In this document: positions 5,944 to 22,362 of the stretch, piece by piece
Position numbering within the stretch: the stretch's first letter is position 1
Layout of the letters: each line of letters opens with the position of its first letter
IMG/VR virus record: IMGVR_UViG_3300025133_000483
Coordinates: 1-28,139 of that record
DNA from: a virus
Strand: one strand, 5' to 3'
Length of the DNA: 28,139 nt
The notes under the pieces: model-generated
Seen by the model: the letters and a program-made list of their open reading frames with translations, nothing else
Told to the model about the DNA's origin: nothing
Database searches by the model: none
Translations under genes and position numbers: made by a program

Positions 5944-6401
5944 CTCGTTTTCCTGTAAAGCTCTGGCCGCTTCTTGCGGTCAGCCATCTTCCACGTCACG
6001 TCCCAATCCTTCGGTATCGTCGCTACACTTTCATATGCAGCGTCCGTCATGTCCTTCATGGTCGGACTGACCACATAGACAATGTCGTGACGATCATGCA
6101 GATCGAACTTCCGCAAAACGCTGGCCACAAAAACCTTGGCCGTGCCTTCGGCAATGCCGAACCGCTCGGCAACTTCCCTTGTCTTGGCCCCACGCAACAG
6201 CATCTGCATGGTGCCGTGCATCTTGGGCGTCATGCTCACGAACGCCTTTAATATTGTGGGACTTGGCTCATTCGGGTCAGGCTCAGACGCAGGTTGCCCC
6301 GCACCCCTCAACACCATCTCCTGCAACATCTCATTCTTTGCCTTCAGCACCAACACCTCTTCGCGTAGTGCTTCGATAATTCTATCTTGCTCCCTAGACA
6401 C
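5940..6401 (-). CDS. LuxR/GerE-type HTH transcriptional regulator with N-terminal coiled coil
   Basis: 153 residues from a GTG start with AGGAAGGA seven bases upstream; the nearby ATG at 6403 is out of frame. Residues 3-32 form a leucine-zipper-like coiled coil. Residues about 57-104 match the LuxR/GerE DNA-binding domain: MTPKMHGTMQMLLRGAKTRE, then AERFGIAEGTAKVFVASVLR, then LHDRHDIV. The usual acyl-homoserine-lactone or receiver domain is absent, so any signal input would come through the coiled coil or another protein. As first gene of the operon ending in the integrase, it probably controls lysogeny or integration. The fold is firm; the target is inferred. Confidence 0.82.
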   Translation of the reverse strand: MSREQDRIIEALREEVLVLKAKNEMLQEMVLRGAGQPASEPDPNEPSPTILKAFVSMTPKMHGTMQMLLRGAKTREVAERFGIAEGTAKVFVASVLRKFDLHDRHDIVYVVSPTMKDMTDAAYESVATIPKDWDVTWKMADRKKRPELYRKTR

Positions 6402-10129: not shown

Positions 10130-12259
10130 TCACTTCACTCTGGACCAGACACGCTTGGCCAACTCGTTGACCGCCTGCCTGTCTTGAGAGTTACACTTGT
10201 TCAACAACACAACTTCGAGGGCGTTGTCCTTCGCAAACTTTGCGTCGCCCGTCATCTTCAGGAAGGCTGCGTGCTTCTTGACCATGGCCTGTGTGCCACG
10301 AGGCGAGATGGTTGTGCCAATCTCACCACGCTCGAAGCCCTTCCTCACCTCGGCTGCCAGATCGGCCACACCCTTGATGAAGTCCTTGTCTCCGTGCGGC
10401 ACACGCTTCTTCAGCACACCTTCTTCAGCACCCGGCTTCATGTACTCGATCTTCACGACCTCGCTGAAGCGATCCATGAAAGCAATCGACTGCACCTTGG
10501 CCCCCTGATAGAAGCCCGTCTCGTCACCAGTCCCGTTGGTATTATCGGTCGCTGCCATACGGAACCAGCCAGCTGGCGCGATGTGTCGGCCACCGTCCTC
10601 GTTGATCACGAGGCCGTTGCCCTCCAGTACCCGCTGAAAAACGTAGGCTGTGTTCGGATGGATGAATGACACCTCGTCACAACACAGGATCGCGCCCATC
10701 TCCATGGCCTGCGGCACCACACCATTGATGAACTCAGACACAGTCACCGGAGTACCATTGACCTCGACACTCTTGAGGGTTTCACGACCCAACAGATCGA
10801 GGCGTGTAATCCCATCATCGAAGTTGATGCGGAAGAACGGCCAGTTCAGCGAGGCCCCAATCCACTCAATCAGTGTTGTCTTGCCAGACCCCGTGTGTCC
10901 CGTCAGCCACGGCACACCACCGTCAACCAGTGAGTGCAGCACGTTGGCCAGCACCTTGATGTCAGGCACATAGTCAAGGTCCAGTGACGGAACAAACGGA
11001 TGCGTGCCATCCCATGCAAACACCGGAACATCGAAGTCCAGATACATCTTGGCCTTCCCCGTCACCAGCTTGCCCTTGATCTTGATCACATCGTGGGCCT
11101 TCACCATGGTCGCGCTGACCAGCGCTGGCAGCTTGCCACCAGACACAGGTGCAATGGCTGCCTTGGAAGTGCTGTTAGCCAGACGATCCATCAGGTCGGT
11201 GACGCTTGTCTTGAGTTCGTCACGTTCCTGCTCCACCGTGTTAATGGCAGCGGCCAGCGTGCCGATGTCCATCTCATAACCGAGTGACTGGAGCATGGTG
11301 TTCAGGACGTTCTTGTGTTCGTCCTTGATTTCGGGAACCGCAGACACAACAACTGGCGCTTCGGCCTCGTCCTTCCCGAACACAGCGTCAAGGCCGACCA
11401 TGAAGACGTCCTTCAACCCTCCGTCCGCTAGTACCCTAAATTCGTAGTCCACCTCGTCACCACCGCTGACCCTCGCATCAACCAGCTTGCGGGTCAGGTC
11501 GACAACACGGTCGGTCACACCAATCTTAGTCATTGCGTCGAGTGCCATACCGCTGGCTTCCTCGACGGTGATCAGGTCATCTTTAATCATGATCTCCCTG
11601 ACCATGGCGTCGTGTATGTAGGTAGCGTGACCAGCCTCCATGGTGTTGGCAGTTGCGAGTGTCTTGGGATCAATGTCGTTTGTGTTCATGGCTGCTCTTT
11701 TCTTGGTGTTGGTTGCAGTTGTGATTTCAGGGGCGCTGGGGGAAGTAGGAACGGCAGGAGTAACGGAAAGGCCTTTGAGTACGAGGTTGGCAACGGCAAT
11801 CATGTATGCCTTGCTGGCGAGGCATACGGGTTCGCCGAACGAGTAGCCTGTCTTGGACTTGTCGTTCTCCACGCCGTTGGTGGCGGGGGCTTTGATTGCC
11901 TCATAGACTTGGTCCCAATTGATAGACACGGCGCACATTTGATGTGTGCTCACGGGCTTGGAATAGGCCTTGGTCAGTGCATTGCTTTCTTCCTCAGACA
12001 AGGCCACCCCACCAAAGGCGAGGCCAGCCAGCACCTGCCAAGGCAGGCTGTCACGGACACGAGGGTAGAGCGTGGCGTTCAGGTTGATCTGATCGGCTTC
12101 CAACCCACAAAGTGGGCTGTCCTTGGCAGCTTGGTAGCAGTGGTTTCCATCGAAGTTGTGTTGGGCGACGTCGTTCACGCAGGCTCTCAGCTGCTTGCGC
12201 TGCTCAGATGCAGGTGTTGCCAGTACCGCTTGGCATATGGTTGCAAGTGTTGTTGTCAT
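10130..12259 (-). CDS. CobS/MoxR-like AAA+ ATPase with long N-terminal extension
   Basis: 709 residues from the ATG at 12259, which has AGGA eight bases upstream; an in-frame ATG at 12274 adds five residues and overlaps the GAGCAAA motif. The AAA+ core fills the C-terminal half: Walker A GHTGSGKTT (about 454-462), Walker B ILCCDEVSF (about 523-531), sensor-1 ATDNTNG and the DRF arginine-finger region, in the order seen in CobS and MoxR ATPases. Residues 1 to about 190 are a separate helical domain not found in CobS, joined by a Thr/Pro/Ala-rich linker. The family couples ATP hydrolysis to remodelling of a protein bound by a VWA partner, which is the next gene downstream. Its 5' leader holds a promoter, a repeated hairpin box and a terminator. 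Confidence 0.88.
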   Translation of the reverse strand: MTTTLATICQAVLATPASEQRKQLRACVNDVAQHNFDGNHCYQAAKDSPLCGLEADQINLNATLYPRVRDSLPWQVLAGLAFGGVALSEEESNALTKAYSKPVSTHQMCAVSINWDQVYEAIKAPATNGVENDKSKTGYSFGEPVCLASKAYMIAVANLVLKGLSVTPAVPTSPSAPEITTATNTKKRAAMNTNDIDPKTLATANTMEAGHATYIHDAMVREIMIKDDLITVEEASGMALDAMTKIGVTDRVVDLTRKLVDARVSGGDEVDYEFRVLADGGLKDVFMVGLDAVFGKDEAEAPVVVSAVPEIKDEHKNVLNTMLQSLGYEMDIGTLAAAINTVEQERDELKTSVTDLMDRLANSTSKAAIAPVSGGKLPALVSATMVKAHDVIKIKGKLVTGKAKMYLDFDVPVFAWDGTHPFVPSLDLDYVPDIKVLANVLHSLVDGGVPWLTGHTGSGKTTLIEWIGASLNWPFFRINFDDGITRLDLLGRETLKSVEVNGTPVTVSEFINGVVPQAMEMGAILCCDEVSFIHPNTAYVFQRVLEGNGLVINEDGGRHIAPAGWFRMAATDNTNGTGDETGFYQGAKVQSIAFMDRFSEVVKIEYMKPGAEEGVLKKRVPHGDKDFIKGVADLAAEVRKGFERGEIGTTISPRGTQAMVKKHAAFLKMTGDAKFAKDNALEVVLLNKCNSQDRQAVNELAKRVWSRVK

Positions 12260-12284
12260 TGAGCGTTCCTCCATGTTTGCTCAT

Positions 12285-12310
12285 AAAAAAGGCCCGACAC
12301 AGGTCGAGCC
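12285..12310 (-). terminator. Terminator in the 5' leader of the AAA+ gene, possible attenuator
   Basis: On the minus strand GGCTCGAC (12310-12303) pairs with GTCGGGCC (12298-12291), one G-T wobble, 4-base loop, followed by six T (12290-12285). It ends only about 25 bases before the AAA+ start and about 110 bases after the likely transcription start. An upstream GTCGAG (12349-12344) could instead pair with CTCGAC of the 5' arm, giving an alternative fold that would prevent termination. Confidence 0.7.
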
Positions 12311-12354
12311 TCAGAGAAGGTCAACCCCTTTTTGGGCTGGCTCCTCGACTTAAA

Positions 12355-12375
12355 TTCCCTTGTCCTTTGGACCGC
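12355..12375 (-). promoter_or_regulatory. Repeated hairpin box, copy 1 (leader of the AAA+ gene)
   Basis: On the plus strand the core reads CCCTTGTCCTTTGGACCG; on the minus transcript it is GTCC-AAA-GGAC followed by AAGGGA. The same box precedes four other minus-strand genes (16509, 17113, 19454, 19799), with a divergent copy at 17795. Here it lies between the promoter and the leader terminator. Confidence 0.75.
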
Positions 12376-12421
12376 GCCCACATAGCGTCGCAAGAGAGAT
12401 AAGCTGTTCCCTTTTGCGAAC

Positions 12422-12448
12422 ACTATATATCATGGACACATCGGTCAA
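12422..12448 (-). promoter_or_regulatory. Sigma70-like promoter of the AAA/VWA operon
   Basis: The minus strand carries TTGACC (12448-12443) and, after 15 bases, TATAGT (12427-12422) within a TATATATAGTG stretch; shifting the -10 gives spacings of 16 or 17. It lies in a markedly A/T-rich segment between the gene ending at 12516 and the leader of the AAA+ gene. Confidence 0.5.
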
Positions 12449-12463
12449 GGGGTAATCTTTCAT

Positions 12464-12479
12464 CCGTGATTAATCACGG
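12464..12479. promoter_or_regulatory. Perfect 16-bp palindrome, candidate operator
   Basis: CCGTGATTAATCACGG is an exact palindrome placed 15 bases upstream of the -35 box of the AAA/VWA promoter. That position suits an activator or a repressor binding as a dimer. No second full copy was noticed elsewhere in the window. Confidence 0.6.
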
Positions 12480-12515
12480 CTAGCAAGATCATCAAACAGA
12501 CCCATAACATTGGCG

Positions 12516-12935
12516 TCACTGGATTACTCCATTCACCTTGCCCTTGTAGTTGGGCGCACCCTCTTTAATGCGCTGGATGTGTGGCGCTAGTGTCTCGTCG
12601 AGCGTGCCCTTGTCTACGTGGTCCGCATACTCTTCACGAAACTCACGACAGACCTGCGCCCTCTCGTTGATGAACTCGTATCTGTTCATGCGGGGATCAG
12701 GTTTCTCTGTACCCAAGTCACCAAGGTTCTGCGGCAACACACCACCGCTGGCCTTGTGAACGAGGCGTGCCCTGATGTCTCCGTAGATGGAGACGAAGGC
12801 CTGACACTCGACGACATAGGGGTCTTCCTCACCAATGAGGATGTCCCGTGTCCCGAGGGTAGGAGCCTCGAGCATGTGCTTGGTGTAGGCTTCTTCGTCC
12901 CACTCTTCGAGCGTGTCCCATACAGGATTGTTCAT
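12516..12935 (-). CDS. Unknown acidic protein downstream of the phosphatase gene
   Basis: 139 residues from the ATG at 12935, which overlaps the phosphatase stop (TGATG). A longer in-frame extension has no ribosome-binding site, while AGGGAA precedes the chosen start. It begins MNNPVWDTLEEWDEEAYTKH and is rich in Glu, Asp and Arg, with helical segments NERAQVCREFREEYADHVD and LAPHIQRIKEGAP near the end. No domain is recognised. Translational coupling to the polynucleotide-phosphatase-like gene suggests a shared pathway, perhaps nucleic-acid end repair, but the sequence itself gives no catalytic motif. Confidence 0.72.
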   Translation of the reverse strand: MNNPVWDTLEEWDEEAYTKHMLEAPTLGTRDILIGEEDPYVVECQAFVSIYGDIRARLVHKASGGVLPQNLGDLGTEKPDPRMNRYEFINERAQVCREFREEYADHVDKGTLDETLAPHIQRIKEGAPNYKGKVNGVIQ

Positions 12936-13570
12936 CAGAAGTTCCCTTCTGCTACCTGAGCACAACGGATACCGTTGCGACGCCACATGTCTACGACCTG
13001 TTGCCTGTCGTCGAACGCCAAGACAGGCTCGTGCCCGGTGTCATGGAGGTGCTGGAGTATGTCCTCCTTCACCTCGAAGTCGGGTCGGTAGTCTTCGTCG
13101 TCACGCATGAACAGGAAGTCATCGTTGATTTCATAGTGTACGTTCTCGGACAGCCAGCGCAGCGTGTCGTGTCTGACGTTCACCAGTTCAGCACCGCCAA
13201 CGGCCTTCACCTGCTTGTTCATGCGCCCAGACAGGAACAAAACCTTTGGCTCGGTGGCTGGATATTCTGCGTGCTTGTCGAACATCCATGATGCCAGTTC
13301 GCATATCTCGTCGATGCGTGTGTCTGAGATGACGCTGCCGTGGAAGGCGTCCCAATCGGGCTTGAAGCCGATGTCCTTGGCAGCCACCCACTGCTTGCCC
13401 GATGTGTTTGTTCGGACCTGCCTTCCCCGTGTGGACTTGCAGACCTCAACGATCATGTGTTCGTGGCCCCGGTCATCCATCATGGTCTTCCCCACCACTG
13501 GCCGTATGTAGTGCAAGCGGTGGGTCAGGTCGGCGAGTGTGCCGTCGATGTCAAAGATAACTGTTTTCAT
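12935..13570 (-). CDS. HAD-family 3'-phosphatase domain, PNKP/PseT-like, without a kinase domain
   Basis: 211 residues, ATG with AAGGA eight bases upstream, overlapping the previous gene by ATGA. The HAD motif 1 is DIDGTLAD (7-14, nucleophile D7, acid D9), followed by THRLHYI as in T4-type polynucleotide kinase/phosphatase. Motif 2 is FLSGRM. Motifs 3 and 4 are in DFEVKEDIL and LAFDDRQQVVDMWRRNGIRC, with an ending AQVAEGNF typical of the phosphatase half of phage PseT. The reaction would be removal of 3'-phosphates from DNA or RNA ends before ligation. The P-loop kinase half present in T4 PseT is missing. It may repair ends made by host nucleases; that role is inferred from the family. Confidence 0.85.
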   Translation of the reverse strand: MKTVIFDIDGTLADLTHRLHYIRPVVGKTMMDDRGHEHMIVEVCKSTRGRQVRTNTSGKQWVAAKDIGFKPDWDAFHGSVISDTRIDEICELASWMFDKHAEYPATEPKVLFLSGRMNKQVKAVGGAELVNVRHDTLRWLSENVHYEINDDFLFMRDDEDYRPDFEVKEDILQHLHDTGHEPVLAFDDRQQVVDMWRRNGIRCAQVAEGNF

Positions 13571-14046
13571 GCTGCAATCCTTTCTGGATCGTGTGCTGAC
13601 ATCAGGTCAGACAGGTGAGTGATGCGCTCGATCATGCTGGTGGCATACGCGGCCTTGTTCTCGGGTGACCGTGATGTCTTGCCTTCGAGGCTCTCAAGTT
13701 TGTTCAACATGTGGCCTTGCTCACGCTTCCACGCTTGGCACGCCGCCTCTTCCATGCTGTCGAAGTCGTTACCCATGATGCGGCATGTCTCGTGAACGCC
13801 CAACACACTACGGATCAAGTTGATGTGCCGTCGCGTTGTCGAGCTATACCCCTTCGTGTTCACGACGGGCAGCCCACCAACGAACCAGCACAGCGGGTAG
13901 TGTGTGCCGTAGCTGAGGAGGACGTAGTTTTTCTTGTAGTAGTCCACAAACAACGTGCCCTTCCCGTTCTTGATGTACTCATAGTTGGCCCTTAAGACCT
14001 TTTTGTTGGCGAAGCGGAGGCAAACTTCCCTGTTTGTCATGCTCAT
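13567..14046 (-). CDS. Unknown protein
   Basis: 159 residues; ATG preceded by GGAGCAAAGAC, one of the recurrent leader motifs. The N-terminal half is beta-rich and aromatic (KGTLFVDYYKKNYVLLSYGT, YPLCWFVGGLPVVNTKGY), followed by a basic STTRRHINLIRSVLG stretch. The C-terminal half is helical (MEEAACQAWKREQGHMLNKLESLEG). The N-terminal arrangement recalls small phage proteins of unknown role. It overlaps the phosphatase gene by ATGA. A nucleic-acid association is possible given its neighbours and basic segments, but I see no defining motif. Confidence 0.75.
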   Translation of the reverse strand: MSMTNREVCLRFANKKVLRANYEYIKNGKGTLFVDYYKKNYVLLSYGTHYPLCWFVGGLPVVNTKGYSSTTRRHINLIRSVLGVHETCRIMGNDFDSMEEAACQAWKREQGHMLNKLESLEGKTSRSPENKAAYATSMIERITHLSDLMSAHDPERIAA

Positions 14047-14056
14047 GTCTTTGCTC

Positions 14057-14449
14057 CTATTCTGCTGCGACGAGGCGGGTGGGGAAGCGTGAGACAGGCC
14101 TGTCCCGAAACATGATGGCCCTCTTGAGGCTGTATTCAGCCGACTTGCGAAGCCAGACGGTATTCATGATGCGCTCCTCAGTCGTACTCATGTTCCTGAG
14201 CGTGGCTTGAATGTTGATTTTGCCATTCTTGTCGAGGGTGATCCGGCGATCGTCCCGTGGCGTGACAGCCTTCGGTGTCTGGCGTTGTGTCTTGGCTCGA
14301 CGTTCGACGGGAGGCTTTGCGACCTTCACGTTCTCACTGTCGATGTGAAAGTCTTGGCTCTCCTCTGCGACAAGCGAGAGGGCGGTCATAACCTCGCAAA
14401 AGGACTGGCTTGAGGTGAAGGTGATGGTGTATTTTTTGGTGTTCTTCAT
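14057..14449 (-). CDS. Unknown basic protein
   Basis: 130 residues from the ATG at 14449, which is preceded by GGAGCAAAGACACC; upstream in-frame codons have no such site and overlap a separate small gene. The first 45 residues (KYTITFTSSQSFCEVMTALS) look like a strand-helix unit. A Lys/Arg/Pro-rich linker follows (KPPVERRAKTQRQTPKAV). The end is a basic helical region (RNMSTTEERIMNTVWLRKSA, YSLKRAIMFRDRPVSRF). The strong positive charge suggests contact with nucleic acid. No family is recognised. Confidence 0.7.
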   Translation of the reverse strand: MKNTKKYTITFTSSQSFCEVMTALSLVAEESQDFHIDSENVKVAKPPVERRAKTQRQTPKAVTPRDDRRITLDKNGKINIQATLRNMSTTEERIMNTVWLRKSAEYSLKRAIMFRDRPVSRFPTRLVAAE

Positions 14450-14463
14450 GGTGTCTTTGCTCC

Positions 14464-14595
14464 TTAGTAGTTCAGCCACACAGCGGCGGCCATTGAGGCA
14501 TAGGTCACGACCAACATTGCGATGGCCGCGATCATGCCGTGAACCATGTCCGACTTGTGCCGGAGCATGGTGAGTAGTGATTGCCAGAGGGTCAT
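14464..14595 (-). CDS. 43-residue single-pass membrane peptide
   Basis: A short gene read by hand: ATG at 14595, stop at 14464, two bases before the GGAGCAAAGAC of the next gene. The product starts MTLWQSLLTMLRHKSDMVHG and continues with a hydrophobic segment of about 24 residues (MIAAIAMLVVTYASMAAAVW) ending LNY. Two basic residues precede the membrane segment, so the N-terminus is likely cytoplasmic. It begins three bases after the previous stop, so translation is probably coupled, as no clear Shine-Dalgarno is seen. It could be a small holin-like or membrane-modulating peptide; only the membrane nature is supported. Confidence 0.6.
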   Translation of the reverse strand: MTLWQSLLTMLRHKSDMVHGMIAAIAMLVVTYASMAAAVWLNY

Positions 14596-14598
14596 TCG

Positions 14599-14943
14599 TT
14601 ACATGTAATCGGTGATACTGAGGTCGCCCCATGGCATGTCGAGCAAGTCGAGGCTGTCGTAGTGTGCTTCCTCGGCTGGCGTGAAGTCGGGTTCGCTTGA
14701 GAAGTAAGCGTCAACATCAAGGATTTGGGTGAGGCCGGGACCAGCGTCCTTTGCGTGCCCGTTCTTGATGGCTGTGCGTGTCTGGCCCTCACTCAACAGG
14801 CGGAAGCTCTCGAGTGTGGTGTCACTGTGCTTCTTGACTGCGGCTTCAGCTGTCGCACGGTCGCACTTCTGCCATGCCATCGTGGCTTTCACGCAGGCCT
14901 CGTCGTGGGCCTTGTTGAACGCGGTGTTTACTGCTGGTTGCAT
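14599..14943 (-). CDS. Unknown helical protein
   Basis: 114 residues, ATG at 14943 with a leader GGAGAGCAAAGATG that combines a Shine-Dalgarno with the recurrent motif. The first 60 residues are helical (FNKAHDEACVKATMAWQKCD, TAEAAVKKHSDTTLESFRLL); the rest is acidic with aromatic residues (DVDAYFSSEPDFTPAEEAHY). No domain recognised and no membrane segment. The gene is followed after three bases by the membrane peptide, suggesting a coupled pair. Confidence 0.72.
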   Translation of the reverse strand: MQPAVNTAFNKAHDEACVKATMAWQKCDRATAEAAVKKHSDTTLESFRLLSEGQTRTAIKNGHAKDAGPGLTQILDVDAYFSSEPDFTPAEEAHYDSLDLLDMPWGDLSITDYM

Positions 14944-14958
14944 CTTTGCTCTCCTGTT

Positions 14959-15159
14959 TCAGGGTTTCAGGTCGTCGGGTAATCCCACGCCCTCGTAGTA
15001 GTGGTCGCCTTCTTCCATCGCCTTGTGTTCGTAGTTGACGGCGATGCGGTAGTAGTGATGCGCCTTCTCGACGGTGACGCATGAGGGGCAGATCAGGTCT
15101 GCGTTGAAGCGTGACTTCTCACGGCTGTTTGTTGGTGCCGTACACCTGTCACACCTCAC
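14959..15159 (-). CDS. Small zinc-binding protein
   Basis: 66 residues from a GTG in a GTGA overlap with the upstream gene. Residues 3-27 contain C3/C6 and C24/C27 (RCDRCTAP and ICPSCVTV), a plausible single zinc ribbon. The remainder is a Tyr/His-rich helix (KAHHYYRIAVNYEHKAMEEG). Such small zinc ribbons in phages often contact RNA polymerase or nucleic acids. The metal site is visible; the target is unknown. Confidence 0.72.
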   Translation of the reverse strand: MRCDRCTAPTNSREKSRFNADLICPSCVTVEKAHHYYRIAVNYEHKAMEEGDHYYEGVGLPDDLKP

Positions 15160-15431
15160 AGCTGGCCCTCCAGTTCACGGACCTGCTGCTCGAAGTCGAG
15201 TGCGGCACGGTATTCACTGACGGTCAGCCCGTCTGGCCTCCACGAGCGTGTCTTGCGAGGGTTGCCGCATAACTGACATGAGCACCATGTGTAGGTGTCA
15301 CCACGCGCTGCGATCTCGTCGTCTGTCGGATCGGACAGCAGGTTCTGCTTCATAAGGCTGGCCGCACGATCCCTCATGCGGAACTTGTGATGGCGTCGCA
15401 GAGCGAGGCCGATTACACGGGGCAGTCTCAT
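15156..15431 (-). CDS. Small basic protein with CSCxxCGNPR motif
   Basis: 91 residues; ATG with GGAGG about eight bases upstream, overlapping the previous gene by ATGA. After a basic N-terminus (RLPRVIGLALRRHHKFRMRD) comes WCSCQLCGNPRKTRSW, a motif I recognise from a group of small uncharacterised phage and bacterial proteins that carry CSCxxCGNPR. The cysteines could bind metal, perhaps as part of a dimeric site because a second CxxC pair is missing. The C-terminus is a short helix (EYRAALDFEQQVRELEGQL). Biochemical function is unknown. Confidence 0.75.
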   Translation of the reverse strand: MRLPRVIGLALRRHHKFRMRDRAASLMKQNLLSDPTDDEIAARGDTYTWCSCQLCGNPRKTRSWRPDGLTVSEYRAALDFEQQVRELEGQL

Positions 15432-15628
15432 GTGTGTTCCTCCATGTCCTTTGCCAGTAAACCTGCTGCAATCACATCTTCGATATGCTGATCCATGTTG
15501 ATGTTGAACCTGCGGTGGATGATGCGATGGATTTCAGTGCATTGATCCTCGCTGATCGTGTGACCAAGCACCTGTTCAATGTCACCGTGGTTCTCGGCAC
15601 CAAGTGGTGCCTGCGTGTCTTCGCTCAT
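15428..15628 (-). CDS. Small unknown acidic protein
   Basis: 66 residues, ATG overlapping the upstream stop by ATGA and preceded by GGGAGACAAC. The sequence is acidic with a helical middle (SEDQCTEIHRIIHRRFNINM, DQHIEDVIAAGLLAKDMEEH). It starts MSEDTQ, resembling the next protein upstream, which starts MSEDSY, but similarity ends there. No domain is recognised. Confidence 0.68.
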   Translation of the reverse strand: MSEDTQAPLGAENHGDIEQVLGHTISEDQCTEIHRIIHRRFNINMDQHIEDVIAAGLLAKDMEEHT

Positions 15629-16029
15629 GTGTTGTCTCCCTCATACTCATCATTCTCGAAGCAACGCAGTTGATCGTTGGCACCACAGCCGAGGCATTGA
15701 GCAGTCGACTTGCGGTCGTACTCGATGTCGTCGGTGGATGGTTTGCTATCCTCATCGTTGGATTTGAGCCAGATGGTTGCCTCGTGGATGATGTCGGTGC
15801 TGCCACACTCGCATTTGTATTCTGGCGTACTCATGCTGGCCCCCTCTGCCTTATTGCTCGTAGCGAGTAGGTCTGTCTTGTGAACTAATCCGCCGCAGTG
15901 AGGGCACTGACCGAAGGGCACGAGTTCGCCGGGTCCGACACGCGAATAGAAATTGTAGATGCTATCGAGTTCGGATCGGTCGTTGGTCGTGGCCCCGCAG
16001 TCGTCACAGTGATAACTGTCTTCGCTCAT
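15625..16029 (-). CDS. Double zinc-ribbon protein, possibly two fused small genes
   Basis: 134 residues, ATG preceded by GGGAGAAACGAT. It contains two CxxC-type sets: C8/C11 with C42/C45, and C73/C75 with C112/C115, giving two zinc ribbons in tandem. Met66 (MSTPEYKCECG) has its own strong ribosome-binding site (GAGGGG six to seven bases upstream), so a second, shorter product containing only the C-terminal ribbon may be made, or the gene arose by fusion of two neighbours. It overlaps the genes on both sides by ATGA. Zinc ribbons in small phage proteins often act on RNA polymerase or nucleic acids; the actual partner is unknown. Confidence 0.75.
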   Translation of the reverse strand: MSEDSYHCDDCGATTNDRSELDSIYNFYSRVGPGELVPFGQCPHCGGLVHKTDLLATSNKAEGASMSTPEYKCECGSTDIIHEATIWLKSNDEDSKPSTDDIEYDRKSTAQCLGCGANDQLRCFENDEYEGDNT

Positions 16030-16451
16030 ATCGTTTCTCCCTCAGTATGAGGCTTCAGTTCGGCGTACTTGTCGGAGAACTGCGCTTGTGCAGCGACATA
16101 GATGTCGTCGATTGATACGCAGACAACCTCGCCCGTGTGGTCGATTGCCTCGGCCCAACCAGTGACGTAGCGTGCCTTCTCGTGTCCCGCCTCCATGTAG
16201 ACAAGGACTTCACCTTCAACGAGGTGTTCGGCTACCCCATCCATGACGTAGACAAGGTCGTCGTCGTCGTTATACATGTGGGGCTGGTCGCCATATTCGG
16301 TGTCGTTGTACCAGCCATGTCGCGTAACACCCTCGCTATCGGTGTGTTCGAAGTGTGTTGCGCCGTCGAATTGATAGAGGAACGCCTTGAACTTGTCGGC
16401 GTCCTTCACTTGGACGTGATTGCTACGTCCCATACCTGTCCAATTAGCCAT
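16026..16451 (-). CDS. Unknown acidic protein under a repeated leader
   Basis: 141 residues from the ATG at 16451, preceded by GGGAGAAACGAT. The upstream frame remains open through the 88-bp repeat, but this has no start site of its own and is leader sequence. The protein begins MANWTGMGRSNHVQVKDADK and contains Asp/Tyr-rich stretches (WYNDTEYGDQPHMYNDDDDL) and a middle of alternating strands (EVLVYMEAGHEKARYVTGWA). It may be a compact beta-rich fold. No family is recognised. Expression is probably governed by the hairpin box in its leader. Confidence 0.72.
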   Translation of the reverse strand: MANWTGMGRSNHVQVKDADKFKAFLYQFDGATHFEHTDSEGVTRHGWYNDTEYGDQPHMYNDDDDLVYVMDGVAEHLVEGEVLVYMEAGHEKARYVTGWAEAIDHTGEVVCVSIDDIYVAAQAQFSDKYAELKPHTEGETI

Positions 16452-16536
16452 ATCGTTTCTCCCATAGTTGTTTCCATCGACCAGCTTCCTTCGGCTGGCC
16501 AAGCTAGTTTTCCTTGTCCTTTGGACCGCACAGGCT
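16449..16536 (-). repeat. 88-bp direct repeat, copy A: regulatory leader with hairpin box
   Basis: Identical base for base to 17053-17140. On the minus strand it runs from just after the upstream stop to the start codon. It contains the box (16509-16529), a second hairpin GGCCAGC/GCTGGTC around an 8-base loop, and the ribosome-binding site GGGAG. The flanking sequences and the genes that follow differ, so the leader alone was duplicated. Confidence 0.95.
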
Positions 16537-16551
16537 ATGTGTCGCGTATCG

Positions 16552-17055
16552 TCACGTCGCGAATAAAGAGTGGGATGAGGCCAAACAGGAACCAGCCCTG
16601 CCTGATGCCGTGGTTCCTGTCTTGGCTCTCTCGATGATTGCCCGGAAGCCAGTGAGGTCGTAGTTGCGTGTGTCACAGGCTTCGATAACGATGTCGAAGT
16701 AGACCAGCGCTTGCAACGCAGCCAGTAGCTCAAGGCCCGTCTCGTGAGTGATGAGGGGCACGAGGTTGTTGAGTTCGTAGAGTTCGATGGGTGTGTGGGG
16801 TGAGAAGTTCCGTTTGACCTCGGCATACAATGTGTCGCCCACGACCTTCCTGTAGGTGACGGTCCCTGTGAGGGTGTCGCGGTTGAAGTTGAGGGTGATG
16901 TCATCGAGGGTGTTGCCCCTCTCTCGGTCGAAATAGTATTCAGGGGTATCATCGCCGCTGTCGCAACCATCAAACCCCTGACTGAGCAGGAAGGCGATGT
17001 GCTCGTACTGTTTGTCGCTGATGTCGCTGCAACGATCTCGTGTTAACTGGCTCAT
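16552..17055 (-). CDS. Unknown protein under a repeated leader
   Basis: 167 residues from the ATG at 17055, preceded by GGGAGAAACGAT in the second copy of the 88-bp leader. The first half contains YEHIAFLLSQGFDGCDSGDD and YYFDRERGNTLDDITLNFNR followed by strands (TLTGTVTYRKVVGDTLYAEV). The second half is helical (ETGLELLAALQALVYFDIVI). The C-terminus ends in a Ser/Ala-rich tail. No family is recognised, and it shows no clear similarity to the protein encoded after copy A, despite the shared leader. Confidence 0.7.
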   Translation of the reverse strand: MSQLTRDRCSDISDKQYEHIAFLLSQGFDGCDSGDDTPEYYFDRERGNTLDDITLNFNRDTLTGTVTYRKVVGDTLYAEVKRNFSPHTPIELYELNNLVPLITHETGLELLAALQALVYFDIVIEACDTRNYDLTGFRAIIERAKTGTTASGRAGSCLASSHSLFAT

Positions 17056-17140
17056 ATCGTTTCTCCCATAGTTGTTTCCATCGACCAGCTTCCTTCGGCT
17101 GGCCAAGCTAGTTTTCCTTGTCCTTTGGACCGCACAGGCT
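17053..17140 (-). repeat. 88-bp direct repeat, copy B: regulatory leader with hairpin box
   Basis: Exact copy of 16449-16536. It begins four bases after the stop of the gene at 17145 and ends at the start codon of the next, so it fills the whole gap. The box lies at 17113-17133. Because there is no room for a separate promoter outside it, the element itself must carry whatever signal the downstream gene needs. Confidence 0.95.
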
Positions 17141-17144
17141 GCGC

Positions 17145-17768
17145 TCAATGCCCGTAGTTACAGCCAACGATCCACTTCTCTCCGTTGCTGATGATTATGT
17201 GTGACTGAAAGACACCGCAGCAGTCGTTGGCCGCACTGTGGTCGAACATGGTCTGGTACAAGCGGTCGCTGTACCTGTAAGCACGCAGGCTGCTGACGCA
17301 ATCGAGGTCGTTGCGTGCTATCTCGATGCGGAGTTCTTCCCACACTTCCTGCGGTACATTTGCGAAGAACGGCAGATCGTGGCCGCATGTCTCGCAGACG
17401 ATGTAACCCTCAACGAAGTCTTGGTAGCACGAGGGGCACGACGCAGTGATCTGCCCTGCTACCTCTGCTGGCACGTTGAGTTGCTCGAAAGCCTTGTCCA
17501 TGTCACGGCCAAAGATGTAGCCAGCCATGTTCTTCAAGAGTGCTCCCGGCACATACGCCAGAGGAACTGTGTAGTCAGGCGATCCACCTGCCTCGGTGCC
17601 AGACCTGTCTATGTCTGTGATGATGGCGTTCCAACCACCATCCTTCTCGTAACGTATCGCGGTGATGCACTGGTCTTGGTCGGTGAGCAACTCGTCTGCC
17701 ATGAGGCAGTGTTCGAGTTGCTTGATCGTGCTCTTGAGCATGGCACGAGTGAACCTGTCGAGTTTCAT
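17145..17768 (-). CDS. Unknown protein with a zinc ribbon
   Basis: 207 residues, ATG with GGGAG about nine bases upstream. The N-terminus is a basic helix (RFTRAMLKSTIKQLEHCLMA). Around residues 110-135, SCPSCYQDF and VCETCGHDLPFF supply two CxxC pairs, a typical zinc ribbon. The C-terminus contains DHSAANDCCGVFQSHIIISN and ends GCNYGH, where more Cys and His residues could join a second metal site. No catalytic motif is recognised. It is one of at least five small zinc-ribbon proteins in the window. A divergent hairpin box precedes it. Confidence 0.75.
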   Translation of the reverse strand: MKLDRFTRAMLKSTIKQLEHCLMADELLTDQDQCITAIRYEKDGGWNAIITDIDRSGTEAGGSPDYTVPLAYVPGALLKNMAGYIFGRDMDKAFEQLNVPAEVAGQITASCPSCYQDFVEGYIVCETCGHDLPFFANVPQEVWEELRIEIARNDLDCVSSLRAYRYSDRLYQTMFDHSAANDCCGVFQSHIIISNGEKWIVGCNYGH

Positions 17769-17794
17769 GTCTTGTCTCCCTTGCGTGTGTATGA

Positions 17795-17813
17795 TCCCTT
17801 GCCCTTGCGGGCC
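17795..17813 (-). promoter_or_regulatory. Divergent copy of the hairpin box
   Basis: On the minus strand this reads GCCC-GCAA-GGGC followed by AAGGGA, compared with GTCC-AAA-GGAC-AAGGGA elsewhere. The stem changes T-A to C-G on both sides, keeping the pairing, and the loop becomes a GNRA tetraloop. It lies 26 bases upstream of the ATG at 17768. A second structure, CCTTG..CTGCC with GGCAG..CAAGG, lies just upstream of the box on the same strand. Confidence 0.5.
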
Positions 17814-17864
17814 TTCACCTTGCGCTGCCTGTATATCGGCAGGGACAAGGCTCGTGCGGCTGCG

Positions 17865-18122
17865 CTACGCCGCCTCGCGTTTGCGCTCTTCGATTTCTTC
17901 ATCGAGGATGTCCGATGCCATATCTATGAGGTCGGGATCGCGCTCTCCCATAGCCGCCAGAATTGAGGTGCACATGTCGTATCTGACCGCATAACCCTCG
18001 GCCACACGGGGCAGATCGACAGCCATAATCCCGATGCTGAACCAACCGAGGTACAGGTGCAGAACGGGTGGCCCTGCGACGATGCCGAGTTTGAAGTGAT
18101 GGAGTGTGATGAAAAACGTCAT
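17865..18122 (-). CDS. Small unknown protein with hydrophobic N-terminal half
   Basis: 85 residues, ATG at 18122 preceded by GGAGCAAAGAC. The first 35 residues are hydrophobic and aromatic (FFITLHHFKLGIVAGPPVLH, LYLGWFSIGIMAV), which could be a membrane segment or beta hairpins. The rest is acidic and helical (DPDLIDMASDILDEEIEERK). No domain recognised. Confidence 0.68.
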   Translation of the reverse strand: MTFFITLHHFKLGIVAGPPVLHLYLGWFSIGIMAVDLPRVAEGYAVRYDMCTSILAAMGERDPDLIDMASDILDEEIEERKREAA

Positions 18123-18135
18123 GTCTTTGCTCCTT

Positions 18136-18171
18136 GAGTAAACCTGCTCACAGGATCGAGTAAACCTGCTC
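18136..18171. repeat. 14-bp tandem direct repeat upstream of a small gene
   Basis: GAGTAAACCTGCTC occurs at 18136-18149 and 18158-18171, separated by eight bases, just before the GAGCAAAGA leader of the gene starting at 18122. A pair of same-orientation copies about two helical turns apart is a common arrangement for a regulator binding site. Confidence 0.7.
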
Positions 18172-18244
18172 GCTTGTTGGGTTAGTGTGTGTTCGTAAAA
18201 GGGTACAACACGAGTACTAAAATATCAAGCACGACGCAAATGGC

Positions 18245-18484
18245 TCACGCCACGGGGCCAAAGCCCGTGACGTAAGCGCGCATTGCAGAGGCCTGCTCGA
18301 CACGGGCGGCAGCCCGTGCCTCACTGGCCTCGTGGATGAGATCAAGGACTTCCGCCTTGGCCTCACGACGCGAGGTGCGGTGTGCTGCTGCGCGTATCCA
18401 CGCAGACGACACACTGGCCCCTTGACGTCCGTGTCGGCACCATTTGGCGTCGAGCACGAACATGTTTGCTTCGGATTGTTTCAT
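18245..18484 (-). CDS. Small Ala/Arg-rich helical protein
   Basis: 79 residues from the ATG at 18484 with AGGAG about seven bases upstream; the longer frame has no supporting site. It is strongly helical, with AHRTSRREAKAEVLDLIHEA and SEARAAARVEQASAMRAYVT, and is positively charged near the middle (HRTSRREAK). No membrane or metal motif. It may bind nucleic acid or be a small structural partner; family unknown. Confidence 0.68.
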   Translation of the reverse strand: MKQSEANMFVLDAKWCRHGRQGASVSSAWIRAAAHRTSRREAKAEVLDLIHEASEARAAARVEQASAMRAYVTGFGPVA

Positions 18485-18524
18485 GTGATCTCCTGTGATT
18501 GTGGGTTGGTGTGGGACGGTGAAA

Positions 18525-18544
18525 CCAGCCCCCGCAGGGGCTGG
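18525..18544 (-). terminator. Hairpin terminator candidate
   Basis: CCAGCCCC and GGGGCTGG are perfect 8-bp complements with a 4-base loop. On the minus strand the tail is TTTC, a weak U-run. It follows the stop of the gene ending at 18555 and precedes the gene starting at 18484, so it may reduce read-through between them. Confidence 0.6.
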
Positions 18545-18554
18545 AAACAGCGGC

Positions 18555-18749
18555 TCACGAGTATCTGAGCAGTCTGACGAGCTTGCTGGCCCGATAGGCA
18601 CGAACACTGGCGTCACGAGCAAGCTCCCGTGCTACGCTCTCGCCGAACATGTCCTTGGCGTCGTCCGACAGGTAGAAAAACAGATCGGCTTTCAGGGCCT
18701 TGTGGATGTCCACGGCCTCGTCGAGGTCCGTGACGCGCTTGCCAGCCAT
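18555..18749 (-). CDS. Small unknown helical protein
   Basis: 64 residues, ATG at 18749 in a TAATG overlap with the upstream small gene. The sequence is helical and amphipathic: LDEAVDIHKALKADLFFYLS followed by DAKDMFGESVARELARDASV and a basic tail (RAYRASKLVRLLRYS). No recognised family. The tight coupling with the upstream 55-residue protein suggests that the two act together. Confidence 0.7.
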   Translation of the reverse strand: MAGKRVTDLDEAVDIHKALKADLFFYLSDDAKDMFGESVARELARDASVRAYRASKLVRLLRYS

Positions 18750-18916
18750 TACGCGGCCTCCCGTGTCTTGAGCACGCGGCCCTTGCTGCGGAAACGCATG
18801 AAGCCAACGTATCTAGCCTCACGCTCGGCATCCACGCGCTCCTGCTTGTCGCGGCTATCGTCAACGACGTGTTCACGGACGGGTGTGTAGTACGGGTGTC
18901 TGCGATATTCTTGCAT
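18749..18916 (-). CDS. Small basic protein, 55 residues
   Basis: Read by hand: ATG at 18916 with GGAGA seven bases upstream, stop at 18749-18751 sharing its last base with the next start (TAATG). The product begins MQEYRRHPYYTPVREHVVDD and is dominated by Arg, Glu and Asp (SRDKQERVDAEREARYVGFM), ending RFRSKGRVLKTREAA. It is probably helical and binds either nucleic acid or a protein partner. The leader contains GAGCAAAGA (18929-18937) directly after a strong terminator. Confidence 0.72.
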   Translation of the reverse strand: MQEYRRHPYYTPVREHVVDDSRDKQERVDAEREARYVGFMRFRSKGRVLKTREAA

Positions 18917-18938
18917 CGGGTTTCTCCGTCTTTGCTCG

Positions 18939-18967
18939 AAAAAAAGGGCCGCCCCGAAGGGCAGCCC
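18939..18967 (-). terminator. Strong Rho-independent terminator before the 55-residue gene
   Basis: On the minus strand GGGCTGCCC (18967-18959) pairs with GGGCGGCCC (18954-18946) with a short TTCG-like loop region and one G-T pair, followed by seven T (18945-18939). It ends the gene at 18991 but lies only 23 bases before the next start codon, followed by the GAGCAAAGA motif, the same order as in the AAA+ leader. Confidence 0.85.
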
Positions 18968-18990
18968 GTGTGTAGTGCAGGTGAGTGTGA

Positions 18991-19389
18991 TTACTCGACG
19001 AGCAGGAGCGTGATTGCCTCCTTCTGCGCCTTCGTCAGACCCACGGTGGCGATTGCACGCTCGATCGGGGTTTTCAGGTTGGAGCCTTTGGCTTTCGCCT
19101 TGGCCTTCTTCGGGGCCTTCACCAGTTTGGCAGCGGCCTTGGCCTTCGCAGACGCCTTTGCACCCGGCTGTGTAGCGAGATCGCCCTTCTTCGCGGGGCG
19201 ACTGTCGTCCTTCGGGTAGACCTCATCCGTGAGGGAAACTTCGTTAAAGGCCAAGGCAGTGACGATCCGGGTTTTGCCCTTGTATGTGACCGCGAAACGT
19301 CCGTCCGTGTGAACACGCAGAGGGCGAAGGTGCTTGCCGCCTTTGGCGTCGAACGCGATTACCTGTGTGCTTGTGAGTGTGTTTGTCAT
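18991..19389 (-). CDS. AK-rich histone-H1-like protein
   Basis: 132 residues from the ATG at 19389, with GGAGGGG about nine bases upstream; the leader contains the hairpin box copy at 19454. Residues 1-60 form a beta-rich domain (IAFDAKGGKHLRPLRVHTDG, RFAVTYKGKTRIVTALAFNE). Residues about 66-102 are an Ala/Lys/Pro-rich tract (KKGD..KASAKAKAAAKLVKAPKKAKAKAKG) like the tails of histone H1-like bacterial proteins, which wrap or bridge DNA. Residues 103-132 form a short helical domain (PIERAIATVGLTKAQKEAIT). It may compact or coat phage or host DNA. The composition is clear; the DNA role is inferred. Confidence 0.8.
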   Translation of the reverse strand: MTNTLTSTQVIAFDAKGGKHLRPLRVHTDGRFAVTYKGKTRIVTALAFNEVSLTDEVYPKDDSRPAKKGDLATQPGAKASAKAKAAAKLVKAPKKAKAKAKGSNLKTPIERAIATVGLTKAQKEAITLLLVE

Positions 19390-19453
19390 AACGTGTGCCC
19401 CTCCTACGGGCTTGGTTTGGGCCGAACCGTTGTGGCATCGGCCTCGCATTAAT

Positions 19454-19474
19454 TTCCCTTGTCCTTCGGACTGT
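19454..19474 (-). promoter_or_regulatory. Repeated hairpin box, leader of the AK-rich gene
   Basis: The minus strand reads GTCC-GAA-GGAC followed by AAGGGAAAT, with one loop change from the other copies; the stem is intact. Downstream GGCCGA and TCGGCC form a second hairpin before the GGAGGGG ribosome-binding site. Confidence 0.75.
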
Positions 19475-19485
19475 GTGTGCGTGTG

Positions 19486-19746
19486 TTACGCGGAGTGAAG
19501 CGAAGCGTGAGCGAGAACCGAAGGTTCTTCGGATTTCCATTCGATGTTGAGAACGCCGTAGGGCATTTCGAGGAAAACTCCAACGGTTTCACCGTCGTCG
19601 CTGGTGTAGTCGTAGACGTCCTTTGGCGTGAAAAATAATTTGGCCTTCGCGATGGTAATATTCGCGCTGACACCCGCGACATCGAGCGCGGATTTTCCTT
19701 CGCGGTAGTCAGCGAAGCTGAATTCGGGTGAGAGTGTGACAAGCAT
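19486..19746 (-). CDS. Small unknown beta-rich protein
   Basis: 86 residues from the ATG at 19746 with GGAGG six bases upstream; longer frames run through the leader and lack a start signal. The sequence alternates short strands (SPEFSFADYREGKSALDVAG, SANITIAKAKLFFTPKDVYD, TVGVFLEMPYGVLNIEWKSE). It has no cysteines in a metal pattern and no membrane segment. It is the first gene of the minus-strand block, divergent from the terminase operon, and its leader carries the hairpin box. That position suggests early expression. No family is recognised. Confidence 0.74.
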   Translation of the reverse strand: MLVTLSPEFSFADYREGKSALDVAGVSANITIAKAKLFFTPKDVYDYTSDDGETVGVFLEMPYGVLNIEWKSEEPSVLAHASLHSA

Positions 19747-19798
19747 GAGAACCTCCATAGAACTGGTCGAACCGGAGTGGCTCGACTTCCGCCGTACA

Positions 19799-19819
19799 TT
19801 CCCTTGTCCTTTGGACCGT
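19799..19819 (-). promoter_or_regulatory. Repeated hairpin box, leader of the first minus-strand gene
   Basis: Exact core shared with copies at 12355, 16509 and 17113. Downstream on the minus strand GTCGAGCC and GGTTCGAC form an 8-bp hairpin (one G-T pair) and then the GGAGG site. The box sits in the 116-base divergent gap between the minus block and the plus-strand packaging genes. Confidence 0.75.
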
Positions 19820-20437: not shown

Positions 20438-20692
20438 ATGACCGTCACATCCCGCGAAGCAGAGCGCATCAAGTCAAAAGCCACCCCCCGCGAACTGGCC
20501 TCGGCCATCGGTGCCCTCGACCTCACCAATATGACCGCAGAGCAGCGCAAGGGGGCCATAGCAGAGCGTCTGGCCCAAGTCATGCTGGCGACTACCACAG
20601 ACCCCGTAGAGCGCTCTAAGGCCCATTTTCAGGCCGCCAGCGCCACGCACAACCAGCGCAATAAAGCTCTCTCCTCATCTCTCATCGTCTAA
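20438..20692 (+). CDS. Small unknown protein upstream of the large terminase
   Basis: 84 residues, ATG with AAGGT six to seven bases upstream; its stop shares one base with the terminase start (TAATG). The sequence is helical, basic at the beginning (SREAERIKSKATPRELASAI) and ends with KAHFQAASATHNQRNKALSS. The polar helical composition would suit a DNA-binding terminase partner, so small-terminase function could lie here rather than in the preceding gene. No family is recognised with certainty. Confidence 0.7.
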   Translation: MTVTSREAERIKSKATPRELASAIGALDLTNMTAEQRKGAIAERLAQVMLATTTDPVERSKAHFQAASATHNQRNKALSSSLIV

Positions 20693-22362
20693 TGAAACCC
20701 ATTACACCCCAAGATGCCGCCAAACATCTTCTTTCACTACGCGCCGCAGAGGAGAGTTTCCTCGGCTATGTGAAGCTGATGCACCCGGAATTTGACCTCC
20801 AGCCCTTCCATCTCGAACTCATCGAGGCTCTCGACCAACTCGAGAAGGGCCAGCTGCTGCACCCAGACACCGGCAAAGCCATCACCCGCCTGCTCATCAA
20901 CTGGCCCCCAAGACACGGCAAGTCACAAATCGCCACCCAACTCTTCCCTGCCTACTACATGGGCCGCAACGCCCGTCGCACGGTCCTCTCAACCTCATAC
21001 GGCTCAGACCTCGCCAAGCGCTTTGGCGACAAGGTCCGCGAGTACGTCCAGCGAACGGAACACACTCAATGCTTCGACGGCTTCGAACTACGCTCCGACA
21101 CACGCGCCAAAGAGGACTGGGCCACTACAGAAGGCGGCTCATACTTTGGATGTGGTATTGGTGGTGGTACTACGGGGCGACCAGCAAACCTCTTGCTCAT
21201 CGACGATCCCATCAAAAACCGCGCCGAAGCAGAGAGCGCCACAGTCCGCAACAAAGTCGGCGACTTCTACATTTCATCCCTCGAAAACCGCAAAGAACCC
21301 CTCCTAACAAACGGCGTAAACGAACCCCCAATAGAAGTAGTGATCCTGACCCGCTGGCATCCTGACGATCTTGGCGGTCGTATCCAGTCCACCGATGACT
21401 GGCTCGAGCATCGCTGGATGCACATCACCGCGCCAGCCATCAGGCGCAGCCGCACCAATGACCCGGCCAAGAAAATCGCCCGCAACACCCTGCCCACCTC
21501 TCACCCCATGTGGGTGCCGAACGGCGAACTCCAGATCATCGCCTCCACCAAGCGCTACATCTACCCCTCTGCCGAAACAGCTCTCTGGCCCGATCGCTTC
21601 TCCATCTCGGAACTCAAGCTCAAGGAGCGCCGCAACCCCCGCGAATTCGCTGCCCTCTACCAGCAGGAACCCTACATCAAGGGCGGTAACCTCATCAAAG
21701 CAACGTGGTGGCAATACGCCGACGACGACATCCAGCCCCAAGACGAGGACTTCTCCTCAATCATCATCACCGCCGACACCTCCTTCAAGGCTGCCGACGA
21801 CAACGACCCCTCTGTCTTGATGACCCTTGGCCTGCACAACAACGGCGACATCTACATCCTCGACATCACCACTGGCCGTTGGGAGTTCCCCGAACTCAAG
21901 CGACGCTCTGTCGCCGCAGCTGCCAAGTGGCGCGGCTTGGGCCTCAAGGGCTTCTACATCGAAGACAGGGCCAGCGGCCAATCCCTCATCCAAGAACTCA
22001 AACGCGAGAGCGGCATTCCCGTAATCCCCTACAAACTCCCCGGTGGCGACAAGTACGTTCGTGCAAAAGCCCAGACACCCATCATCGAGGGCGGTCGTGT
22101 CTTCCTGCCGCGCCAAGCCCAATGGCTCGACGCCTTCATCCAACAATCGATTGAATTCCCCTCTGGCACGCACGACGACATGATCGACGCCCTCACCATG
22201 GGCCTCGATGTCCTCTCTCGCATGGATACTCATGACACCGACCTCATCAACGGACCCCTATCAATGGGCCAGTCCCTGAACGCCATGTTCGGTGCCCAAC
22301 AGGGCCAGTCACTCCGTGCCGCCTTCGAGGGCTTTAGGGTCGGCAGGCCGCTTGGTGGTTAA
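20692..22362 (+). CDS. terL: Terminase large subunit
   Basis: 556 residues, the normal length for large terminases, which pump DNA into the prohead and cut it. The ATPase domain has Walker A PPRHGKS (72-78) and Walker B LLLIDD (167-172). The C-terminal RNase-H-like nuclease has D361 in ITADTSFKAADDND, IEDRASGQSL (422-431) and HDDMIDALTMG (493-503), the three acidic sites that coordinate metal. The overall layout matches the terminase family with a C-terminal nuclease domain of the Terminase_6C type. It starts in a TAATG overlap. The portal gene follows after 43 bases. Confidence 0.97.
   Translation: MKPITPQDAAKHLLSLRAAEESFLGYVKLMHPEFDLQPFHLELIEALDQLEKGQLLHPDTGKAITRLLINWPPRHGKSQIATQLFPAYYMGRNARRTVLSTSYGSDLAKRFGDKVREYVQRTEHTQCFDGFELRSDTRAKEDWATTEGGSYFGCGIGGGTTGRPANLLLIDDPIKNRAEAESATVRNKVGDFYISSLENRKEPLLTNGVNEPPIEVVILTRWHPDDLGGRIQSTDDWLEHRWMHITAPAIRRSRTNDPAKKIARNTLPTSHPMWVPNGELQIIASTKRYIYPSAETALWPDRFSISELKLKERRNPREFAALYQQEPYIKGGNLIKATWWQYADDDIQPQDEDFSSIIITADTSFKAADDNDPSVLMTLGLHNNGDIYILDITTGRWEFPELKRRSVAAAAKWRGLGLKGFYIEDRASGQSLIQELKRESGIPVIPYKLPGGDKYVRAKAQTPIIEGGRVFLPRQAQWLDAFIQQSIEFPSGTHDDMIDALTMGLDVLSRMDTHDTDLINGPLSMGQSLNAMFGAQQGQSLRAAFEGFRVGRPLGG

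Follow-up and report, generated by a model that had tools for sequence, protein, structure and literature searches.

The window and its five boxes

The window analyzed here, the whole of the 28,139-base virus record IMGVR_UViG_3300025133_000483, carries minus-strand early genes facing a divergent terminase-portal module, and its early region contains five copies of a short hairpin box which may serve as early promoters. The genes encoding the terminase large subunit (20692..22362, plus strand), a divergent late gene, and the portal protein (22406..24307, plus strand) were identified by sequence searches, and their products are 50% and 65% identical, respectively, to those of Roseobacter phage CRP-810 (57.7 kb), the nearest annotated phage. 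The cobS/cobT genes, an integrase gene and a LuxR-type regulator gene are common to the window and CRP-810. Judging from these similarities, the window represents part of the genome of a marine phage of the CRP-810 type. Phages of this type are temperate (PMC11288001), and the presence of the integrase gene is in line with this.

The core of the box occurs five times on the minus strand with 0-2 mismatches, whereas 0.03 copies are expected by chance and no shuffle reached five. The preliminary description had placed copies on one strand in the leaders of at least five unrelated genes: the five sites are confirmed and calling the genes unrelated is fair, but the exact positions given were 2 bases off. 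In the minus-strand sense, each copy reads GTCC-RAA-GGAC-AAGG(G/A)A and is followed by a second hairpin, a Shine-Dalgarno sequence and a start codon (5/5 boxes). All five lie within one early region. Box 1 (12357..12374, minus strand, as are all the following features), an exact match consisting of GTCC-AAA-GGAC and then AAGGGAA (family model E 0.0033), is located in the leader of a cobS-like AAA+ gene (10130..12259; the longest reading of the open reading frame starts at 12274). The other four were detected by the core search: box 2 (16511..16528; model E 0.038) and box 3 (17115..17132; E 0.038) precede the genes 16026-16451 and 16552-17055, box 4 (19456..19473; GTCC-GAA-GGAC; E 0.02) precedes the Lys/Ala-rich early gene 18991-19389, and box 5 (19801..19818; E 0.0035), the first early-strand box after the terL divergence, precedes the gene 19486-19746. 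The second hairpins predicted by RNA folding in the leaders of boxes 1 to 5 are at 12314..12346, 16477..16502, 17081..17106, 19420..19443 and 19766..19786. Their sequences differ from copy to copy, apart from those following the boxes at 16511 and 17115, which are identical and were assigned from one fold: these two boxes belong to an 88-bp perfect duplication (16449..16536 and 17053..17140) extending from 8 bp before the box through the start codon.

A sixth, divergent copy had been proposed at 17795, but this site is not supported. It reads GCCC-GCAA-GGGC, in which a 4-nucleotide GNRA loop takes the place of the RAA triloop, and no second hairpin is evident. The family model which finds the five copies (E 0.003-0.04) does not find it at E up to 10, and hairpin-plus-AAGG matches of the same quality are also present elsewhere in the window, the other strand included. 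Since the site is not supported, its single double-sided stem change, previously read as a sign of selection on RNA structure, is no evidence of such selection; the real covariation comes from the related phages.

Distribution of the box in related phages

More than 100 related loci were gathered by searches based on the portal protein of the window. Conservation at the equivalent leaders of related phages, on which the preliminary description had made its proposal depend beforehand, is clear. CRP-810 carries CCCGAAGGGACTTC three times on its early strand, at 840, 1758 and 57600; as in the window, one of the copies precedes cobS. In the relatives, boxes precede the first early gene as well as other early genes and cobS; many of the loci have at least one, the first being mostly about 900-1,050 nucleotides from the start of the terminase gene. 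A covariance model built from 22 copies and run over 829 kb gave 48 matches in the window, CRP-810 and the portal-selected relatives, all 48 of them on the early strand. When 17 whole records were searched, 10 of them gave matches (21 in total), the weakest of which (E 0.05, in the L118 contig) is on the strand opposite to that contig's boxes; the other seven gave no model match, and a recognisable box is thus not universal among the relatives. Two exact patterns searched across 2.9 million viral contigs retrieved 20 stretches, 19 of which come from phages of the CRP-810 type and have the box at their first early gene. A search for the 18-mer core in all the viral contigs retrieved only a near-identical sibling (L006/L085) and four contigs (L081-L084), three of which (L082-L084) have no such leader and were taken to be chance matches.

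On the sequence evidence, the same pairing device, spelled with differing letters, is found in front of early genes in a family of ocean phages. That the boxes might be recent repeat copies or mobile repeats devoid of any regulatory role is suggested by the duplication carrying two of the five window copies, but is hardly credible in view of the pairing kept across divergent stems, the equivalent positions in many phages and the one-sided orientation; the family-wide conservation has already refuted it.

Pairing in the two hairpins

Pairing was counted in 47 boxes anchored by their 3' half and compared with 2,000 shuffles, the counts being uncorrected for relatedness; some of the copies were first found as hairpins, which amounts in part to selection, and non-pairing copies found by position or sequence were also included. 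Pair 3 is Watson-Crick in 43 of the 47 boxes (expected 20.9, shuffle maximum 30), T-A, C-G and A-T all being used, and pair 4 in 38 (expected 23.0, shuffle maximum 33). The outer stem bases vary between and within genomes while pairing is kept, and the stem letters differ in this way among the boxes of a single genome in L101, L131 and L099. Excluding a clade that has lost the hairpin, pairs 1-4 are Watson-Crick in 157 of 164 cells. Only one of the 158 paired cells is G-U, against 14.5% in hairpin 2, and at pairs 3-4 C-A mismatches occur without any U-G. The scarcity of G-U pairs favours a structure formed at the DNA level, but only moderately, because the early searches preferred Watson-Crick stems and thereby biased the count.

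Hairpin 2 starts at a median of +12 from the loop centre (interquartile range 11-15) and folds better than its shuffles (mean z -1.69, versus -0.50 in the coding control). Selection on RNA structure, as originally proposed, is therefore upheld in the case of the second hairpin and not in that of the first. A GG is present at +11 to +14 from the loop centre in most relatives and at +8 in the window copies. In the 26 bases upstream of the box, purine-pyrimidine alternation reaches 0.64, as compared with 0.504 (standard deviation 0.018) in random early-region DNA.

Host-type promoters in the leaders

Sigma-70-type promoters were scored with a simple textbook Escherichia coli weight matrix, with which promoters of other hosts may be missed. 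All seven of the cobS leaders scored have such a promoter (10.3 versus 6.3 in shuffled sequences), its -10 lying 33-51 nucleotides upstream of the box. With the same matrix, no early-strand promoter was detected upstream of the 22 first boxes as a group (6.0 versus 6.8 shuffled), and none upstream of eight other internal boxes as a group (5.4 versus 6.6). In the window, a sigma-70-like promoter, TTGACC-N15-TATAGT (12422..12448, minus strand), is located upstream of box 1 and is the counterpart of the relatives' cobS promoter. The latter (TTGACN...TATACA) is conserved in the cobS leaders of L086, L131, L159, L164, L170, L234, L238 and L244. In the window and its relatives it overlaps an inverted repeat (GTGTAT...ATACAC-like), and it is probably repressor-controlled.

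The two kinds of sites also occur separately. The TATACA promoter is present with no box between it and cobS in L109, L164, L179, L181 and L244; the cobS leaders of L106, L112, L113, L137 and L218 have a hairpin-less AAGGAACTTTTATA version; and in L128 the box and second hairpin are upstream of the cobS promoter. Such separable modules would be more readily explained by a promoter unit acting independently than by an RNA element that depends on a sigma-70 transcript.

These data bear on the possibility that hairpins 1 and 2 act as RNA while a transcript from a host promoter further upstream is being made, for instance as a nut- or put-like antitermination element, or as a stabilising element reloaded before several genes. 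The seven cobS-leader boxes following a -10 at 33-51 nucleotides would be well placed for this role, but no recognisable host promoter precedes the first boxes, and neither the L128 arrangement nor the five cobS promoters with no box after them would be expected. Likewise, hairpin 2 looks selected as RNA, whereas hairpin 1, subject to the search bias, has one G-U pair versus 157 Watson-Crick pairs and C-A mismatches but no U-G at pairs 3-4; moreover, the second hairpins are unrelated in sequence, and a search of Rfam gave no relevant match, only two unrelated weak ones at E<1. Antitermination might also account for the terminator-like hairpins found after the box in the window (12289..12312, minus strand, between box 1 and cobS, where an intrinsic-terminator-like hairpin with a T run was recognised from the sequence and its RNA fold) and in L101, for a strong terminator-like hairpin (18967-18946) separating boxed from unboxed early genes, and for the Lys/Ala-rich basic protein encoded by the first early gene. 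Taken together, these points make an RNA leader rather unlikely.

In the nut sites of phage lambda and the put sites of HK022, a short hairpin is located in early leaders, on the sense strand of early operons. The box resembles them in both respects. It differs from them in that no boxA-like partner was noticed near it, its loop is an RAA triloop and not a GNRA-type pentaloop, its hairpin has nearly no G-U pairs and the second hairpins are not conserved in sequence. In the case of the RfaH ops element, the recognised form is a small DNA hairpin of the non-template strand (PMC5995543), which is a likeness to the box as read here; ops, however, acts on elongating polymerase and is unrelated in sequence, and no NusG/RfaH paralogue was noticed in these phages, where no search was aimed at one.

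The box might also be a DNA site for a phage regulator, such as an immunity-repressor operator or a stoperator acting in one orientation in early operons. The temperate lifestyle (integrase; PMC11288001) would suit this explanation, as would the LuxR-type (GerE) helix-turn-helix gene which adjoins the integrase region both in the window (5940-6401, minus strand) and in CRP-810 (gp13). Repressor sites of the L5 type lack symmetry, lie between genes and follow the direction of transcription (PMC9283540), and the stoperators of mycobacteriophage L5 are, like the boxes, repeated intergenic sites with one orientation in a temperate phage (PMC9283540); they are nevertheless asymmetric 13-bp sites numbering more than 20 per genome, whereas the boxes are inverted repeats present in two to five copies. 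From phage to phage, the stem letters tend to vary, much like immunity specificities, but they also differ within one genome with pairing kept (L101, L131 and L099), unlike what would be expected of base reading by a dimer. The first boxes would still need a promoter, and none was seen there; nor would sites of this kind be expected to keep nearly the same distance to GG and to the beginning of hairpin 2. A regulator site is therefore improbable.

Likeness to N4 promoters and polymerase searches

In the promoters of phage N4 read by the virion RNA polymerase (vRNAP), a heptamer is centred at -11, its flanks form a hairpin and an A run in the template serves as a ruler, while the variable stem bases matter for pairing alone (PMC4496689). 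The early promoters proposed in N4-like Pseudomonas phages have stems of 4-5 nucleotides and 3-nucleotide loops (PMC3715699). At sites 96 and 565, the N4 genome reads GTTGC-TTC-GCAACTTATGG and GAAGC-TCC-GCTTCTTTTGG, after which come GGACATGTTGTCC and GGATG...CATCC, respectively; these sequences were taken as P1 and P2 because they match the published pattern (PMC4496689). The family box has the same geometry as P1 and P2, each of which has a further inverted repeat after it, at GG. The features shared with the vRNAP promoters of N4 and N4-like phages (Schitoviridae) include a 4-7 bp stem, a 3-nucleotide loop, a predicted RNA able to form a hairpin from its very beginning, an arrangement of the copies on one strand in front of early genes, and variable stem bases constrained by pairing. 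As to spacing, the loop centre of the N4 promoters is about 11 nucleotides before a GG start, with a T-rich spacer between them, and the putative GG start of the boxes, mostly after a T-rich spacer as well, is at +11 to +14 in most relatives but at +8 in the window copies. The relative L170 reads GTTCC-GAA-GGAACTTATGG and has AACTTATGG in register with N4 P1, a likeness of limited weight since it is one comparison noticed among many.

On balance, we lean slightly towards the box being a compact hairpin-type early phage promoter unit with a layout like that of the N4 vRNAP promoters. Of the two roles first suggested, cis-regulatory RNA or conserved phage promoter, the latter is favoured because of the N4-promoter geometry, the lack of any sigma-70 promoter found upstream of the first and other internal boxes, and the separate occurrence of the two kinds of sites. 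The non-template strand of such a promoter would carry, in order, a purine-pyrimidine-alternating tract, a 4-7 bp inverted repeat with an RAA loop, a usually T-rich short spacer (shorter in the window copies, AAGGGAA) and GG(G/T)NGAG. The inverted repeat would be extruded as a DNA hairpin, as in N4, and transcription would start at the GG, usually 11-14 nucleotides downstream of the loop centre. As soon as it is made, the RNA would form the second hairpin and thereby have its 5' end protected; the Shine-Dalgarno sequence and the start codon come next. Such a promoter might be read by the RNA polymerase of the host, acting alone or together with a phage factor, or else by some unrecognised enzyme.

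Several observations weigh against a promoter of this kind. In the window copies, the AAGGGAA puts GGG 8 rather than 11-14 nucleotides from the loop centre. A related clade (L089, L091, L092 and L127) keeps GGAAGGAACTTTTAGG but no longer has the 5' arm at its first site, and the hairpin is therefore not strictly required. The C(GNA)G loop of N4 is on the template strand, and the C(RAA)G of the box on the opposite, non-template one. The terminator-like hairpins after some boxes (window 12289-12312; L101) would suit antitermination. Lastly, no cognate polymerase was detected: the window being only a fragment, this negative result rests on the relatives. No T7-type polymerase was detected with PF00940 in CRP-810 and 12 relatives (13 records, none at E<=10), while the controls were detected (T7, 1e-110; N4, 1e-14). 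No N4-type vRNAP was found by a profile in CRP-810, four 55-57 kb relatives and the window (best open reading frame 0.14), although this profile finds held-out divergent vRNAPs at 1e-67 and 1e-78. CRP-810 gp36 matches the N-terminal, non-polymerase part of a vRNAP family.

A giant late protein (3.1-3.2 kilocodons), vRNAP-like by its size, was considered as a candidate and set aside, since it gave no polymerase match (hhalign probability 0.4%). The corresponding open reading frame has about 3,150-3,217 codons in L221-L224 (G001-G004). A domain resembling ADP-ribosyltransferases was matched in G001 and more weakly in G002, and HExxH motifs of the zincin kind were recognised by eye; CRP-810 gp34-gp36 appear to be its split counterpart.

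The family thus differs from N4 in that no vRNAP or T7-like polymerase was detected within the scope of these searches, in that some copies have no hairpin and in that the phages are temperate. Since two features defining the N4 vRNAP promoters, the loop on the template strand and a cognate vRNAP, were looked for and not found, the box is built like these promoters but is not filed as a member of their family. Some relatives (L145, L159) also have a TATAGGGNGA-like start resembling that of T7-family promoters. T7 promoters are not known to contain a palindrome, and the absence of a detectable T7-like polymerase from the 13 family records, with the T7 and N4 controls found, is a further difference. 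It is conceivable, and tentatively proposed, that the box represents a class of hairpin-dependent early promoters in temperate marine phages without an N4-type polymerase, in which an extruded DNA hairpin, with its loop on the opposite strand from that of N4, would be read by an unrecognised enzyme or by the polymerase of the host, possibly aided by a phage factor. The paper defining the CRP-810-type family contains no mention of promoters, RNA polymerase or hairpins, according to a term search (PMC11288001).

The box offers an easy way into the early transcription of a marine phage family that is distributed worldwide. If it is a promoter, one has to ask which polymerase would recognise a hairpin of the N4 style in phages where none of the N4 style is found, and this question is testable in the cultured phage CRP-810.

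Other features of the early region

The 5' arm of the terminator-like hairpin at 12289-12312 could pair with the upstream leader instead, in an attenuator-like manner. The hairpin at 18946-18967 (minus strand) is at the end of the Lys/Ala-rich gene. The first early genes of the relatives, corresponding to the second in the window (18991-19389, minus strand), code for small proteins in which a basic linker rich in Lys, Ala and Pro is accompanied by a short C-terminal helix; their N-terminal parts differ from one group to another. The early operon of the window also includes a PNKP HAD (polynucleotide-kinase 3'-phosphatase-like) gene (12935-13570, minus strand).

The TCGTCC and TTTCAACAG-N-TTA motifs near the first boxes were set aside, their distance to the box being variable, and so was a reading of GGAACTT as the -35 of an ECF sigma promoter, since its letters vary together with their pairing partner. 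In some relatives (e.g., L145, L159 and L149), an IHF-like site, TTTCAACAGnTTA, is located about 60-80 nucleotides before the first box and about 22-23 nucleotides from the TCGTCC motif; it overlaps a divergent promoter directed towards terL, TTGAAA-N17-TWTAAC. A second palindrome with a triloop (CCCCTAAAAGGGG, GGTCTGAAAGACC) is found at about 893-956 nucleotides from the terL side in L099, L103, L089 and L108, where it overlaps the divergent promoter region.

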